Source: a virus
Strand: one strand, 5' to 3'
IMG/VR virus record: IMGVR_UViG_3300030104_003897
Location: 1-35,382 of that record
Length of the DNA: 35,382 nt
The notes under the pieces were generated by a model, which saw only the letters and a program-made list of their open reading frames with translations, was not told where the DNA came from and did no database searches. Positions 3,001-30,973 of the stretch are shown here, piece by piece (position 1 is the first letter of the stretch; the number at the start of each line of letters is the position of its first letter). A program made the position numbers and the translations under genes.

Positions 3001-5192
3001 AAAATAATTACACAATTGTAGAAGTAGAAGATTTAGCAACTGCTGTTAAAGAAGTAGATGTAGTAAATACAGGAATAACTAAGGTTGCAACAGTAAAAGA
3101 TGTAAAGGCATATGATGCTAATGGAGGAACATTTGCTGCTGCTACATGGGTTCATAGAACTTTAAATACACTAAGTGATCCACACAGTATTGGTCTTAGT
3201 ATTAGTGGAAATATAGTCACTGTTCCTGCAGGTACTTATAGTATGAGGTGGAGAGCTCCTGCTTATTTGTGTAATCGTTTTACTTCTAGGTTAGCTTATT
3301 CATCTACTAGTACTACAGTTGCATCTGGTATAACTTATGTTGATGGAACCACAGGTTATTCGCATCAATCTGACGGTAAAAGTGTTGAGGAGTCATTCGG
3401 AGAAATTGCTTCTATAACATTTAGTGCTACCACTTATCTTAAAATTGAACAATATAGTGCTACAGGATATACAGCACAAGAAAGTGGATTAGGAGTCTCT
3501 TCTGGTATTAGTGGTGTTGATTCAGTTTTTACCACTCTTGAGATAGAAGATCTAGCAACTGCTATTAAAGAAGGAAGTGGTGGTGGTTCATCTGCATTAA
3601 TTAGTGTAAAGGATTATGGTGCTGTGGGAGATGGTAGTACAGATGATACTGCAAGTATTCAAACTGCTATAAATGCCACATCAGCACTTAAACAAAGACT
3701 ATACATCCCTGCTGGTACATATATCGTTTCAAGTTTATCTCTTCTAAATAATACTTATCTATTTGGTGTTGGTACTTTAAAAAGAAAGGCAAGTTCAGCA
3801 GGTTTTGTAATTACAGCTAGTAGCAAAAATAATTGTATCCTTAAAGGATTTACCATTGATGGAAATAAATCTGCTGTTACTGATGCTACTAAAGCAGCTA
3901 TCCGTATTAATGGTGGGTATCAAATAGTCATTGATGGAATTACAGTAACTAATCATAATTATGATGGAATTTCCATTACAAACACAACTGATAGAACACA
4001 AAAAACAGAAAGTTATATTAAAAATTGTACAGTTAGTGATTCTGAAAGATATGGGATTGAAGTACAGGACGTTAAAGATTTAACGATTATTGGTAACTTG
4101 ATTTCTAATCTTTCAGGTGCCTCTAATCCAATACAAAATACTGGAATTTCGATTTTTGGAACATCTGCTGATAAGACTGATTTAGTTACTGTAGAAGGTA
4201 ATACAGTTATAGATGCAGGTGGAGCAGGTATATCTGCTCCATATTTTTATACAGATCCTGGTGCTCCGTATCCAGTTGGATATTTTGGTGTATCAAAAGT
4301 ACAAATTATCGATAATAAGGTAAAAGGTTCAGGTTATAATGGTATAGTAGTTCAGACAAATAATGGTATTGTTTCTAATAATATATGTGATGATAATGGT
4401 ACAACTACTGGTCATCAAGGAATTCTTATTAATGGTCACTACATAACTGTTGATGGTAATAGTTCTATTAATAATAAAGGAGTCGGCATAGACGTTGGAG
4501 ATGGCAAGTTTGTTACAGTTACAAATAATATTGTTAACAACAACGTACAAATAGGAATAGAAATAAATTCATGTGAAAGTTGTATAGTTGACGGTAATAT
4601 TGTTAGAAGTAATTGGTTAGGAGATGCAGATGCGGATGCAAAAATTAGAGCAGGTATACTTGTACAGGAAGATACTGGTCAGTTTATAGGAGGTTGCAAA
4701 GATATAACTGTTTCAAATAATGAAGTAAAAACTGGAACTAATCAAGCATATGGAATTTCAGTTCTTAATCCTTATGGTGCTAGAGTCAGCGAGACTGATC
4801 CCACAGACAGAGTTTCAATTATAGGTAATAGTTTAACAGGGTCAGGAAGTACTAGAGCTTTAAATATAGAAACTGATAATGGAACTTTTATATGTGAAAA
4901 AAATATTGATTATTTACCAGGTGATATTGCTTCTGCTACATCAATAACTGTTGATCAAAATACAAATTTTGCCATAGTTACAGGAACTACAACAATTACA
5001 TCTATCGTTACAGATACAGCTAAATATCAACGTGGAAGAATGTTAACAATATTATTTACAGGAGCTTTACAAGTTACAGATGGTCCAAATTTAAAACTAA
5101 ATGGCAATTTAACAACTAGTGATGGAACCACATTAACACTGGTTGCTAAGGATAGTAAATGGTATGAAGTTTCTAGGAGCATCAATTCGTAG
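3..5192 (+). CDS. Tailspike/tail-fibre protein with pectate-lyase-type beta-helix (5' partial)
   Basis: The reading frame is open from the first bases of the window, so the true start lies upstream; a TTG at 132 is only an internal codon. The visible part is 1729 residues. The N-terminal half has GIGTT/GITST-type repeats and fibre modules such as YHDGTDS. Residues about 813-1190 hold two copies of a C1q/TNF-like jelly-roll module. From about residue 1198 the signature VKDYGAVGDGSTDD opens a Pectate_lyase_3-type right-handed beta-helix that runs to the C-terminus, with many N-rich rungs. Known family members are trimeric phage tailspikes or fibre depolymerases that bind or cut surface polysaccharide; that this one degrades glycan is an inference, since no catalytic residues were pinned down. 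It heads a run of structural genes and is followed by a 91-nt gap with a late promoter. Confidence 0.85.
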   Translation, partial: TIGTGVTITGITTTNDLSVSGIASFWGPVWDSTGSYGAQSGFILETNQESGVRWVSPSDLTLENANKVGVGSINAADAGIGTHFITFVDSNNYPTRENEKIYSTGLFVYDPQDHGRVGIGTTIPSDTLSVLGISSFKGDVYFNGTDENNLGITSLTWRRSAGILEFKTNVIARFGDDDGDNNPGLEIYHDGTDSIIHDNGEGNLNLKTGDSSIQLLSNDTESMVVAKANSSVELYYDSVKKLETSGIGITVTGITSTNQLMVTGAFYDKDGDSGGENQVLASTGAGAVDWIDPDSLSADSANRIKTCGVTTDRTYHLTFVEDNNTSSSDPNPGALEQVYTGVGITFNANNDYLYLGGSLHLDGTGADTDGDIHSWGGSDGEFTISNEGSGAIHLLVQDNDPNTAGIGIVSFTAENNAKKTYFESNVNPKAHQTYNLAESNIHRWANVHAQNYHGEFLNIYDSNSTNKITLQSPATGNLTADYTLTLPVDAGSADGDVLQTDGNGVLSWTTNSPGTPTAAGDDKQVQFNDKSSGSNVLSGAAELLFTKSDTAPNLVLKSKDTDTASNGGYIQVRNAGSTNTTLNAATINSEGGLELKRTNESVAGGGPFIDFKYDATDMDARIQMDIASGTTSDDKFSAIRFSTGGGGIYDATTNTSGRVTEKLRIGKDGEIGIQGGAQVYDASSDTVSTNHRTSAQIYGTQGQVLKSNGLGASVYWDNEGTGSGISAVQVKQYSDDLGTGPGQSTPRTQRTCDAPITVATSGNTATIGIGSTSNAYGSRYIGDTEPTGNLCEGDIWYDTSSSGSGGVNGSTGVTKVAIIRDQKNSNVDGGYTDKVATGENGSWNDRDLTVKDDPFSFVTLYPTANGQTTYSRGKTPGYFSLPAGTYKIRFKTGGIQLYEHLGSLIWSKTQSDISSEYDWTTNPAQNFVDGGYCLGTTALSKGYNPSASIQNYDLTYSTGSTVVTITETSYFKVVHYSNNNPGAEYAFGSRIHSSVNNIDKNNYTIVEVEDLATAVKEVDVVNTGITKVATVKDVKAYDANGGTFAAATWVHRTLNTLSDPHSIGLSISGNIVTVPAGTYSMRWRAPAYLCNRFTSRLAYSSTSTTVASGITYVDGTTGYSHQSDGKSVEESFGEIASITFSATTYLKIEQYSATGYTAQESGLGVSSGISGVDSVFTTLEIEDLATAIKEGSGGGSSALISVKDYGAVGDGSTDDTASIQTAINATSALKQRLYIPAGTYIVSSLSLLNNTYLFGVGTLKRKASSAGFVITASSKNNCILKGFTIDGNKSAVTDATKAAIRINGGYQIVIDGITVTNHNYDGISITNTTDRTQKTESYIKNCTVSDSERYGIEVQDVKDLTIIGNLISNLSGASNPIQNTGISIFGTSADKTDLVTVEGNTVIDAGGAGISAPYFYTDPGAPYPVGYFGVSKVQIIDNKVKGSGYNGIVVQTNNGIVSNNICDDNGTTTGHQGILINGHYITVDGNSSINNKGVGIDVGDGKFVTVTNNIVNNNVQIGIEINSCESCIVDGNIVRSNWLGDADADAKIRAGILVQEDTGQFIGGCKDITVSNNEVKTGTNQAYGISVLNPYGARVSETDPTDRVSIIGNSLTGSGSTRALNIETDNGTFICEKNIDYLPGDIASATSITVDQNTNFAIVTGTTTITSIVTDTAKYQRGRMLTILFTGALQVTDGPNLKLNGNLTTSDGTTLTLVAKDSKWYEVSRSINS
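2439..3570 (+). repeat. Tandem duplication of a C1q/TNF-like fibre module
   Basis: Two consecutive protein modules align in the same order. Copy 1 covers residues about 813-1017 of the partial protein and copy 2 about 1024-1190. Each opens with GVTKVA or GITKVA, continues with a D..GG segment, a R-L-x-V/T-L-x-D-P core and an AGTY strand, and closes with EDLATAVKE or EDLATAIKE. The second copy has the clearer C1q-like core (LNT..D, AGTYSMRW.AP.Y). The nucleotide sequences have diverged, so the duplication is old. Confidence 0.7.
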
Positions 5193-28633: not shown

Positions 28634-28852
28634 ATGCTTAATTTAGACGAACGATACCATGACTATCTGCATGGTAGTAAGAAATTGAGAATTGATGGCA
28701 TAGATGAACAAGTAGTTGCGTATGGATATACTGACGATGGAAGTAGTATTGATGGATATTACTTGACAACTAAAAATTATCAATTAAAATACAACTTACA
28801 AGGAGTATTTCTTCGTATGAAAGCATTACGAGAATTTGCGAGTACGAGATAA
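28634..28852 (+). CDS. Small protein of unknown function
   Basis: 72 residues: MLNLDERYHDYLHGSKKLRI then DGIDEQVVAYGYTDDGSSID, a YYLTTKNYQLKYNL strand pair and a short basic helix. GGAGA lies four bases before the ATG. The core looks like a small all-beta fold. No known family. Its stop overlaps the beginning of the late promoter of the CP12-like gene. Confidence 0.7.
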   Translation: MLNLDERYHDYLHGSKKLRIDGIDEQVVAYGYTDDGSSIDGYYLTTKNYQLKYNLQGVFLRMKALREFASTR

Positions 28853-28858
28853 TAAATA
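28851..28858 (+). promoter_or_regulatory. T4-like late promoter (AATAAATA)
   Basis: AATAAATA matches NATAAATA exactly and lies 25 bases before the ATG at 28884. It also argues against a TTG at 28836 as the start of the CP12-like gene. Confidence 0.7.
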
Positions 28859-28883
28859 CTCATATACACATTACATTTCGATT

Positions 28884-29153
28884 ATGACTACCAAAACTCC
28901 AGATCACAACTTAGAGCATGAGGTATATCTTGATCCTAAAGATCATAAGGAACATATCAATCATGGTATGATTGAATATAGTGAAGCAGATTTAGAAATG
29001 CACAATGATGCCTTCCATGCACATAGTGAAGAAGAAGTAGACAAGAATGATGGTGCTATCAATGATTGGCACACCAGGCATGAGGATAAGGGGTTAGAAG
29101 TATATTGTGATAATCATCCTGACGCATTAGAGTGTAGAGTGTATGATGACTAG
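28884..29153 (+). CDS. cp12: CP12-like protein (Calvin-cycle inhibitor type)
   Basis: 89 residues from ATG 28884. The C-terminus, residues 72-89, reads EVYCDNHPDALECRVYDD: the C-x8-C pair with the central proline and the final ECRVYDD are the signature of CP12, the small disordered protein that in cyanobacteria binds GAPDH and then PRK and shuts off the Calvin cycle. Cyanophages are known to carry CP12 and to use it to steer host carbon toward the pentose phosphate pathway. The N-terminal cysteine pair of host CP12 is absent; instead the first 66 residues are rich in His (10) and acidic residues. So GAPDH binding by the C-terminus is likely, full PRK complex formation less certain. A late promoter precedes it and a terminator follows 22 bases after the stop. 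Confidence 0.82.
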   Translation: MTTKTPDHNLEHEVYLDPKDHKEHINHGMIEYSEADLEMHNDAFHAHSEEEVDKNDGAINDWHTRHEDKGLEVYCDNHPDALECRVYDD

Positions 29154-29175
29154 GACAGTTTAACAAGTGTAACAA

Positions 29176-29199
29176 GACCCCTATACAGGGGTCTTTTTT
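29176..29199 (+). terminator. Rho-independent terminator after the CP12-like gene
   Basis: GACCCC (29176-29181) pairs with GGGGTC (29188-29193), six-base loop TATACA, then six T. It is almost identical to the hairpin at 24009. Confidence 0.85.
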
Positions 29200-29200
29200 A

Positions 29201-29209
29201 TGGTATTAT
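29201..29209 (+). promoter_or_regulatory. Extended -10 promoter for leader RNA 1
   Basis: TGGTATTAT (TGn plus TATTAT, one mismatch). The downstream overlapping TATAAATG (29209-29216) is one base away from the late consensus TATAAATA. The same 17-base sequence TGGTATTATATAAATGT recurs at 30017. Confidence 0.6.
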
Positions 29210-29215
29210 ATAAAT

Positions 29216-29542
29216 GTGGAAAACAAACGAGGTTCTCAACTACTCTGACACGCACCAAAACTCCCATCTATGGGTGAGGTTCTAAAAGCAAGAAGCAGAG
29301 ACATGACGTTGGGGTAATCATACACAGAATACCGTCCTCAGTTTTGTTTTCCTTCACCATTTGGGCAAGGATCTATGGTTGTCTCTGTTCAGCAGAGAAA
29401 TTACGTCCTGTAAGTCCTTTACGAGGAGATGGATGTGCCTCTCGGTTCGCAACCGAAGAAAGAACTAACATCCCACGTGTTTTTTTCAGGCAGACACGAT
29501 TGAAACAACTTATGGTTGATAACAGTATCACGTTGTAAGTCC
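29216..29542 (+). ncRNA. Candidate structured leader RNA 1 (upstream of the ArdA-like gene)
   Basis: There is no credible gene between 29154 and 29581, yet the stretch is less AT-rich than its surroundings and full of complementary segments. GGAAAACAAACGAGG (29218-29232) can pair with 29336-29352 (CCTC at its start, TTTGTTTTCC at its end): 15 base pairs with two single-base bulges, beginning right at the expected transcript start. Further helices: CTCTG 29243/CAGAG 29296; CCCA/TGGG at 29263-29274; TCTCTG/CAGAGA 29382-29398; GGATGT 29431/ACATCC 29468 enclosing TCGGTT/AACCGA 29442-29456; CGTGT/ACACG 29476-29498; ACAAC 29505/GTTGT 29532. It ends with GTTGTAAGTCC, 39 bases before the ATG at 29582. 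It may be a riboswitch-like leader or a separate small RNA; no Rfam family recognised. Confidence 0.6.
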
Positions 29543-29581
29543 TGACTCATTCTCACATATTCATTCTATTCACTTTTTAAA

Positions 29582-29980
29582 ATGACAACAATGACAGAAG
29601 AAACCAAAGAACTTCTTGAAGATGTTATGGATGAAGAACTCGCATTAGAGTTTATCAAAGAGCATGGTGAAGAGAAGTTTGGTGAATACTATGAACAGTA
29701 TGAAACATTAGTGAGTGATTATGGTCAAGGGTTAGTGGATGAGTATGTAGAGGATTATGGTACAAATGGTATTGAGTACTTTGAAGATTCCTATCAGGGT
29801 GAATATGAGAGTGGAGCAGATTTTGCCGCACAAACGACATCAGACTGTGGTTATATTTCAAGAGATATGCCAAGTTGGGTTGAGATAGATTGGGCAGCAA
29901 CGTGGGAGAATCTATCCTATGATTATACAGAGATTATCATGCCTAATAACAGGGTTGCCATTTTCTCAAACAATTATTAA
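29582..29980 (+). CDS. ArdA-like antirestriction protein
   Basis: 132 residues, extremely acidic: by my count 33 Asp/Glu against 5 Lys/Arg. Residues 71-82 (YQGEYESGADFA) and 99-115 (WVEIDWAATWENLSYDY) match the conserved core of ArdA-type antirestriction proteins, which imitate bent B-form DNA and block type I restriction-modification enzymes. It is shorter than plasmid ArdA (about 165 residues); the N-terminal part is a negatively charged helical region without match to known ArdA. The start is ATG 29582; ATG 29591 is also possible, neither has a Shine-Dalgarno site. It follows a long structured leader, so expression may be RNA-controlled. Together with the DNA methyltransferase it suggests anti-restriction functions; inhibition here is inferred. 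Confidence 0.75.
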   Translation: MTTMTEETKELLEDVMDEELALEFIKEHGEEKFGEYYEQYETLVSDYGQGLVDEYVEDYGTNGIEYFEDSYQGEYESGADFAAQTTSDCGYISRDMPSWVEIDWAATWENLSYDYTEIIMPNNRVAIFSNNY

Positions 29981-29981
29981 A

Positions 29982-30008
29982 CTGGCACACATGGGGTTGC
30001 CAGACCCC
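29982..30008 (+). terminator. Competing hairpins after the ArdA-like gene (possible terminator)
   Basis: CTGGCA (29982-29987) can pair with TGCCAG (29998-30003), or GGGGT (29993-29997) with ACCCC (30004-30008). The two pairings exclude each other. No T-run follows, so termination is uncertain. The position matches the hairpins of the other intergenic cassettes. Confidence 0.4.
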
Positions 30009-30016
30009 CTCAAAAC

Positions 30017-30025
30017 TGGTATTAT
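30017..30025 (+). promoter_or_regulatory. Extended -10 promoter for leader RNA 2
   Basis: TGGTATTAT, the same sequence as at 29201, followed by the overlapping TATAAATG at 30025-30032. Confidence 0.6.
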
Positions 30026-30031
30026 ATAAAT

Positions 30032-30304
30032 GTTGAGACAAGGGTTCAATCATTTTGGATACGGCATACCAGCAATGGTACACTCCTTATATGATTACTT
30101 GATTCAACTGCTCTAATCTCCTTGTAGTTTCAGGATTAGGGGCGATAGGAAACTACACAGTGGGCAAACGCAAGGCAGGGGTGAGTAACAATTCAGGAGC
30201 ATCTTAGATTGCATACTGTGGATAACTACTCTTTGTGTTTGGAGACCTCTTGTACTGCTGATGTCTTAGGACATCTGAAAAGACAGTTTTGAAGTTGTAA
30301 GTCC
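30032..30304 (+). ncRNA. Candidate structured leader RNA 2 with H-type pseudoknot
   Basis: No gene is visible between 29981 and 30335. UACCA-GCAA-UGGUA (30067-30080) is a perfect stem with a GNRA tetraloop. CTAATC (30113-30118) pairs with GATTAG (30134-30139), and TGTAGTTTC (30123-30131) pairs over 9 bases with GAAACTACA (30149-30157). The two helices interleave, which gives the layout of an H-type pseudoknot with loops of 4, 2 and 9 bases. GATGTC-TTAG-GACATC (30260-30275) is a perfect hairpin; CAGT 30158/ACTG 30215 may close a larger domain. The stretch ends with GTTGTAAGTCC (30294-30304), as in leader RNA 1, and an ATG follows 31 bases later. Function unknown; no Rfam family recognised. Confidence 0.6.
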
Positions 30305-30335
30305 CACACCCTTTGTAAACGACACTATTATTATC

Positions 30336-30449
30336 ATGTCACCTAATTTCGCAGAATTCCTTTTGGACACTACCAACAATGGTAATGAGATACTATCAGT
30401 CCTTGAGGACATTGTAGAGGTAGTAGAGACAGGAGGAACCGATCTGTAA
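30336..30449 (+). CDS. 37-residue small protein downstream of leader RNA 2
   Basis: MSPNFAEFLLDTTNNGNEIL then SVLEDIVEVVETGGTDL. One acidic amphipathic helix with no cysteines. No Shine-Dalgarno site. The codon pattern, the position between a leader RNA and a terminator, and the absence of any other frame support it, but it is short. Function not recognised. Confidence 0.55.
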   Translation: MSPNFAEFLLDTTNNGNEILSVLEDIVEVVETGGTDL

Positions 30450-30471
30450 GACAGTTATTAAAGTGGTACAA

Positions 30472-30494
30472 GACCTCTTCACAGGGGTCTTTTT
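30472..30494 (+). terminator. Rho-independent terminator
   Basis: GACCTC (30472-30477) pairs with GGGGTC (30484-30489) with one T-G wobble and a six-base loop, followed by five T. Preceded by the conserved GACAG...AGTGGTACAA motif. Confidence 0.8.
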
Positions 30495-30496
30495 AT

Positions 30497-30505
30497 TGCT
30501 ATAAT
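30497..30505 (+). promoter_or_regulatory. Extended -10 promoter
   Basis: TGCTATAAT, a perfect extended -10 identical to that before the helicase. The next ATG is at 30536, preceded by AGGAG. Confidence 0.75.
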
Positions 30506-30535
30506 ATAAGAGTAAACAAAACAGGAGCATTTCTT

Positions 30536-30973
30536 ATGACTGCAACACCAGTTCAAACAACACTGGAAGAGAGAGTTCTTGGATGGACAGAAGGACTATG
30601 TAATTCTTTGACTGAGAATTACAAGCAACATTCAATAAGAATGTATCAAACAGGTGAATCTGAGTATTCTAGAAAGCAGTTGGAAAGTGTAGAGAATGGC
30701 ACATGGAAAGGCATGAAATTTGTTATAAAGAATGGTAGAAAGTATTATAAAATTATGCAACACGACTTCGATACATTTCAAGATAGAAATGAATATAGAG
30801 AAGGAGGTGTTCATGCCTTTGTTGATAAGAAAACAGGTGAAGTTTACAAACCTGCATCATATAATTCACCAGCAAAGTATGTAAGATTTGATTTAAGAAT
30901 CATTAGAGATCGTGCATTATTACATGATTCACAATTCACAGGATGGGCAGGTGGTTATCTTTATATTAGATAA
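30536..30973 (+). CDS. Phage protein of unknown function (HAFVDKKTGEVYKPAS type)
   Basis: 145 residues. AGGAG lies nine bases before the ATG. The N-terminal half is helical and charged. The C-terminal half contains KYYKIMQHD, then GGVHAFVDKKTGEVYKPASY and PAKYVRFDLR, ending in FTGWAGGYLYIR. This strand-rich motif with GEVYKPA and the terminal GGYLY is common in uncharacterised marine phage proteins, which supports a conserved gene. No enzyme motif was identified. It has its own terminator-separated promoter and leads a run of small genes to 32418. Confidence 0.75.
   Translation: MTATPVQTTLEERVLGWTEGLCNSLTENYKQHSIRMYQTGESEYSRKQLESVENGTWKGMKFVIKNGRKYYKIMQHDFDTFQDRNEYREGGVHAFVDKKTGEVYKPASYNSPAKYVRFDLRIIRDRALLHDSQFTGWAGGYLYIR

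Follow-up and report, generated by a model that had tools for sequence, protein, structure and literature searches.

Exchangeable structured RNA modules in a gene-free gap before an ArdA-like gene recur among ocean cyanobacterial viruses

In the 35,382-nt stretch of viral DNA analysed here (the window), the gap without a gene that precedes an ArdA-like gene consists of at least three structured RNA modules, independent of one another and arranged in a row, with a fourth element besides; the row leads from a terminator and promoter to the ArdA-like gene. Leaders of this type recur in many ocean cyanobacterial viruses. Conserved structure specific to one strand, nesting of domains, conservation of a palindrome and a recurrent spacing to start codons are observed. 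From these sequence comparisons, we favour, with a probability of roughly 0.55, the reading that a separate phage mRNA has this gap as its 5' leader, made of exchangeable domains, in which a clamp would close the 5' end, a palindrome would pair transcripts, and the cargo gene would be controlled.

Layout and distribution of the modules

The gap (29154-29581) is bounded by a CP12-domain gene upstream and by the ArdA-like gene downstream. The latter had been named in a preliminary description of the locus, and its product matches PHROG 36653, anti-restriction protein (E 6.6e-28), whereas its Pfam ArdA match (E 0.012) is below cut-off; no solved structure was found for it by sequence. With 44.0% GC, the gap is less AT-rich than its surroundings, as had been noticed (34.6% GC in the window, about 32-33% in the flanking genes). 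Its features and neighbours are as follows.

28836-29153: CP12-domain gene (Pfam E 2.2e-8), adjacent to the leader on its upstream side
29174-29195, plus strand: intrinsic-terminator-like stem (GACCCCTATACAGGGGTC and a T run), end of the upstream unit
29204-29209, plus strand: -10 box TATTAT; P1 begins 8 nt further on, at 29218
29218-29352, plus strand: module AB, containing the 15-bp helix (covariance model R1, 74.4 bits, E 2.8e-19, this sequence being one of the seeds of the model)
29218-29232/29336-29352, plus strand: helix P1 of AB
29234-29240/29308-29314, plus strand: helix P2 of AB
29243-29247/29296-29300, plus strand: helix P3 of AB
29241-29242 (UA), 29248-29249 (AC), 29291-29295 (AGAAG), 29301-29306 (ACAUGA) and 29315-29317 (UAA), plus strand: conserved unpaired bases of AB
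29250-29289, plus strand: variable loop, the socket of P3
29364-29417, plus strand: module C, with P0 GGC/G(U)CC, P1 AGGAU/GUCCU, P2 UCUCUG/CAGAGA and loop UUCAG
29423-29473, plus strand: module D, a proposed H-type pseudoknot with S1 GAGG/CCUC, S2 GGAUGU/ACAUCC and inserted hairpin UCGGU/ACCGA
29423-29426/29438-29441, plus strand: stem S1 of D (GAGG/CCTC), interleaved with GGATGT/ACATCC
29433-29468, plus strand: possible upstream ORF (uORF) of 11 codons (MCLSVRNRRKN), behind the SD-like GAGGAG at 29423-29428
29474-29479, plus strand: palindromic hexamer CACGTG, immediately 3' of D
29489-29542, plus strand: element E, 54 nt, described from its sequence only, homologues not having been collected
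29582-29980, plus strand: gene of the ArdA-like protein, 132 aa

The preliminary description had seen a single structured RNA with its own promoter, beginning with a 15-bp helix. The promoter is supported by the terminator-like stem followed by the -10 box, and the helix is present exactly, as 10 bp, small bulges and 5 bp. The single RNA is not borne out: the gap splits into modules AB, C and D, because its pieces occur in different orders among relatives (A, B, C, D in the window versus A, C, B, D in P-SSM5). Element E matches module C in length and at its ends (GGCA...GTAAGTCC), with a different interior.

Conservation among relatives, which had been proposed as a check, was found piecewise. 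Using blastn against a phage collection, pieces of the gap matched at about 75-100% identity, mostly outside annotated genes, in P-SSM2, P-SSM5, P-SSM7, S-SSM4, S-SSM6b and single-cell marine viruses. Pattern scans of IMG/VR recovered C in 98 DNA stretches, D in at least 119, and the P1 arm in 87, some of these by chance. The complete isolate genomes P-SSM2, P-SSM5, P-SSM7 and S-SSM4 carry one AB copy each; D is present once each in P-SSM2 and P-SSM5 and absent from P-SSM7 and S-SSM4. A host origin was rejected, since one exact AB pattern and one exact D pattern gave no match in 84,980 genomes of bacteria and archaea, a scan in which divergent copies could be missed. In the literature searched, which took in few subscription papers, no description of the AB, C or D elements was found.

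No Rfam 15 family matches the modules at gathering scores, in keeping with the earlier impression that the leader belongs to none. Searched up to E 5, the interval 29150-30540 gave no manA, wcaG, PhotoRC-II, glnA, Downstream-peptide, preQ1 or glutamine-II match, and the AB copy of S-SSM4, searched up to E 10, gave none of the first five. A SNORD49 match (E 0.15) was set aside as weak, and ARAGORN found no tRNA or tmRNA in the gap. Folding energies were not above chance (z of +0.55 for the whole gap, -0.81 for AB and -0.54 for D). Those of the whole gap and of D being uninformative, folding energy was dropped as evidence, and the case for structure thus rests on comparison.

Comparative evidence for AB and C

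In relatives of the GGGAAA type, a -10 box (TATAAT or five of its six bases) mostly lies exactly 8 nt before P1. This spacing was found with 31 distinct upstream sequences, many of them otherwise unrelated and some having a terminator of their own just before, and it is the one expected for a transcript starting at P1, where the promoter spacing would thus place the start. With other P1 types the apparent spacing differs, in part as an effect of the box search, which picks the right-most best match. AB copies of the GAGAAACAG type are without a clear sigma-70 box. Copies of this type (for instance in L016, L030, L045 and L138) are preceded by a conserved motif, TAAAGTGT, 5 nt and TAGTG, itself often preceded by CTGAAGCG; standing in place of a sigma-70 -10 box, it may mark a different promoter or the point where another RNA ends.

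The covariance model of AB, built from ten sequences and run on 100 loci with an E limit of 0.01, found 79 copies (70 distinct). Compensatory changes, which had been suggested as a check on the helices, are abundant in these homologues: 98.3% of the cells are paired versus 81.4% in shuffles, and 23 of the 27 pairs changed on both sides versus 14.5, with none of 500 shuffles as high. The covariation score of 0.456 compares with 0.156 for shuffles, and slid controls reached no more than 0.127. This alignment (A4) was fitted to the structure model; in an unfitted MAFFT alignment (A1), used as a check on P2 and P3, 97.9% of the cells are paired and the score is 0.577 versus 0.186. P1 is formed by many wholly different sequences, such as GGGAAAACAAA/TTTGTTTTCTC, GCGAAAACAAA/TTTGTTTTCGC, GTCAAGGGAT/GTCCCTTGAT and GTTGAGAGAT/GTCTCTCAAC. 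Among the pair cells of AB, G-U combinations (146) outnumber A-C ones (16), which identifies the plus strand as the folded RNA and rules out an RNA of the minus strand. Conservation of 97-100% is seen for the unpaired UA, AC, AA of AGAAG and UAA, and for A, A, U and the last A of ACAUGA, the C and G of this last motif being 89% conserved.

The loop of P3 has 4 nt in 40 copies and 17-175 nt, with different domains, in the others. Its contents include module C (about two dozen copies), an RNA named R4, a 127-nt RNA named R3, and others; one 175-nt stretch resembles a second gap of the window. A P1-like clamp is also kept where the AB core is missing, with GTTGAGGGATCTCAAC in L024, L049 and L100, and with C in its place in L036 and L027.

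Module C covaries as well, with 7 of its 14 pairs changed on both sides (0 of 500 shuffles). It lies directly before D (44 copies), alone near start codons, or inside AB loops, and is nested in R3 (at least 16 contexts) and R4 (two contexts). R3 (GTGAGGGATATGTGGTTCTACTGCC...CAGGTGTAAGCGATTCCCAGTAGGTAAATTTGGGC...CCCTCAC) is itself a recurring RNA without Rfam match, carrying C or other inserts in its loop, for instance at L011:2467-2638, L008:2324-2490 and P-SSM2 56738-56816. R4 (GTGGKATGACTTAGTACCTG...CAGGTGAAGCACCTCTTGAGCATMCCAC) occurs twice in L009, at about 2615-2697 and 3730-3860; the two copies differ in their loop inserts, and their closing pair shows a compensatory change.

Module D and its palindrome

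Two nested helices had been described in what is now D. GGATGT/ACATCC (29431-29436/29468-29473) does enclose TCGGT/ACCGA, and it is also interleaved with GAGG/CCTC, which had gone unreported; together they would make an H-type pseudoknot, with which D is consistent. Both S1 and S2 are possible in all copies and show no variation, in part since both stems were fixed in the search pattern, and covariation therefore says nothing on them. Outside the search pattern, GAGGAGATG is identical in all 124 D copies examined, and the inserted hairpin covaries at four of its five pairs. Among the matches listed by two relaxed viral scans, none was a convincing D variant with other S1/S2 pairs.

Directly after ACATCC, a perfect palindromic hexamer is present in 102 of 104 distinct D copies, compared with a mean of 12.6 and a maximum of 24 in column shuffles. 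It is of seven kinds (GCTAGC 50, CACGTG 16, CTATAG 14, CCTAGG 13, CCATGG 7, GCATGC 1, TCTAGA 1). Other offsets gave 0-7 palindromes, except for 22 at offset 2, due to GCTAGCTA. In the two exceptional copies, CCATTGG and CCTTAGG, one extra base sits between half-sites that remain complementary (3+3). The kind of palindrome is independent of the type of D hairpin. Within 250 nt, a second copy of the same palindrome was found downstream in none of 130 D copies and upstream in one; on this count, the idea that the palindrome pairs with another copy within its own leader was rejected. Two contigs carry two D copies, with the same palindrome twice in L020 and two different ones in L165. As the letters vary while palindromy is kept with practically no second copy nearby, self-complementarity is what is kept. 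This suggests pairing between mRNAs, which would explain it directly. The bare CUAUAG duplex has an energy of -3.8 kcal/mol and is a weak dimer by itself. Only such bare hexamer energies were used; dimer energies from cofolding were discarded, being constant values from a model without pseudoknots. The hexamer sits directly after D with no conserved helix around it, and so is not in an apical loop.

Two other readings of D bear on these data. Since palindromes are classic dyad sites, and since modules shuffle and different cargo genes stand behind the same D, the hexamer might be a DNA site for protein binding or for recombination in cargo-gene exchange. This we consider the least probable explanation, because all three half-site positions vary over the seven palindromes, which leaves no fixed protein site; moreover, the same gene start, ATGGGAACTCGC, is found behind GCTAGC (5), CCATGG (2) and GCATGC (1), and the two exceptional copies shift the half-sites by one base with their complementarity intact. 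It is improbable, too, that D is a leader-peptide attenuator in which the SD-like GAGGAG and the short uORF act through ribosome occupancy. GAGGAG is invariant, would be hidden by S1, and is followed by an ORF of 8-11 codons that always ends before the palindrome. However, the peptides (MCLSVRNRRKN, MCLWDRNPRKN, MCLVGRPH...) track hairpin pairing and not residue similarity, residues being exchanged (S/W/V, V/D/G, N/P/T/H/Y...) as the pairing dictates, and a uORF leaves the palindrome unexplained.

Position before genes and proposed function

For most of the 17 protein clusters behind D, 21-28 nt separate the end of the module from the start codon; one cluster (DUF6267) has 7 nt, and this window has 108 nt because element E intervenes. 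Behind AB copies that no other module follows, an ORF start, called mechanically, usually lies about 15-35 nt away, a few copies being placed otherwise or having no ORF. These ORFs include phrog_1987 proteins and small basic proteins, and some look like methyltransferases, judged from their first residues only. In S-SSM4 (L005, from about 1381 onward), an unannotated 41-aa basic ORF (MRLKNHESPRKMGRNSRSK...) starts 21 nt after AB; it lies upstream of tRNA-Val. Overall, the genes behind AB and D come from many unrelated families, mostly of unknown function, without a shared pathway.

The preliminary description had left the choice between a riboswitch, a protein-binding leader and a free small RNA. 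That AB and D stand shortly before the start codons of many gene families favours a structured cis leader over the free RNA. A free small RNA, or one that sequesters a protein in trans, the following gene being incidental, is accordingly unlikely; the distances to ORF starts are recurrently short across gene families, and in this window a search between the modules and the start codon showed no terminator-like site. On the other side, AB starts at its own promoter and is single-copy before different genes in P-SSM2, P-SSM5, P-SSM7 and S-SSM4, and a trans-acting RNA would also account for the presence of no more than one copy of AB or of D in each of these genomes. Doubtful, but less so, is the possibility that AB, C and D are tandem metabolite-sensing riboswitches, each switching translation of the cargo gene. 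The invariant unpaired residues of AB (UA, AC, AA, ACAUGA, UAA) and the invariant core of D resemble binding pockets, and cyanophages do carry candidate cis-regulatory RNAs, manA and wcaG (PMC2864571). The lack of an Rfam riboswitch match and the many unrelated families of downstream genes, which share no pathway, speak against it.

In the favoured reading, a separately transcribed phage mRNA would have a leader assembled from exchangeable RNA domains. Transcription would begin just after the terminator and the -10 box, and P1, by pairing the first bases of the transcript, could act as a clamp hiding the 5' end from decay that depends on it; 5'-terminal base pairing slows RNase E decay, according to references given in PMC3997798. 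The strictly conserved internal loops of AB may form a receptor for a protein or small ligand, and P3 is a socket for other domains. D, which would fold as a pseudoknot, stands close before the start codon in most relatives. Through the self-complementary hexamer after it, two transcripts would pair by six bases, as palindromes drive known RNA dimers (PMC7357161). Paired transcripts might then alter ribosome access when the mRNA is abundant, and the leader would control any cargo gene behind it, here the ArdA-like gene. Points against this reading are the weakness of the bare CUAUAG dimer, the lack of variation in S1 and S2, and the 108 nt between D and the start codon in this window.

Parts of this arrangement have parallels. 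The 5'-terminal stems of the E. coli ompA type are leader helices that include the first transcribed bases, as P1 would, but P1 has 15 bp and closes a core that resembles a receptor, has conserved unpaired bases and offers a domain socket. The preQ1 and glutamine-II riboswitches are H-type pseudoknots with an A-rich strand between S1 and S2 and a short distance to the start codon. Module D resembles them in proposed topology, A-rich strand and start-codon distance, and differs by its unrelated sequence (no Rfam match) and its extra inserted hairpin. Among HIV subtypes, the dimer initiation palindrome may change in sequence while its self-complementarity stays. The same holds for the D hexamer (102 of 104 copies, seven palindromes), which is likewise a six-base palindrome, but the retroviral site lies in an apical loop of a packaged genome (PMC7357161), whereas the hexamer belongs to a phage mRNA leader and stands on the 3' side of the proposed pseudoknot. 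The hatchet ribozyme also has a palindrome in its 3' part, which makes symmetric dimers and is not strictly conserved (PMC7357161), compared with 102 of 104 copies in D. The manA, wcaG, PhotoRC-II and glnA/Downstream-peptide RNAs are, similarly, structured candidate cis-regulatory RNAs of T4-like cyanophage genomes (PMC2864571, PMC9964418); the leader differs from them in having no covariance-model match, nested interchangeable domains and a palindrome tag.

As a broader and clearly more tentative proposal, these viruses may draw on a shared set of RNA domains that plug into mRNA leaders: a clamp at the 5' end, a socket for other folded RNAs, and a palindromic tag of variable sequence that pairs like mRNAs and gates translation. 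To our knowledge, no known system combines a clamp, a socket for folded RNAs and a variable palindromic tag. If these readings are true, T4-like marine cyanophages have structured RNA classes with strong covariation and domain swapping by nesting, the existence of natural mRNA-mRNA dimers in a bacterial virus would have direct evolutionary evidence in a palindrome kept for its self-complementarity and not its sequence, and the leaders would offer a handle on phage expression of host-interaction genes.

The window holds a second structured gap (29990-30335), with the same promoter type as the leader and GTTGTAAGTCC at its end. It is followed by an unannotated 37-aa ORF (30336-30449), which seems to correspond to PSSM2_071, and parts of it recur in L007, L002 and L003.
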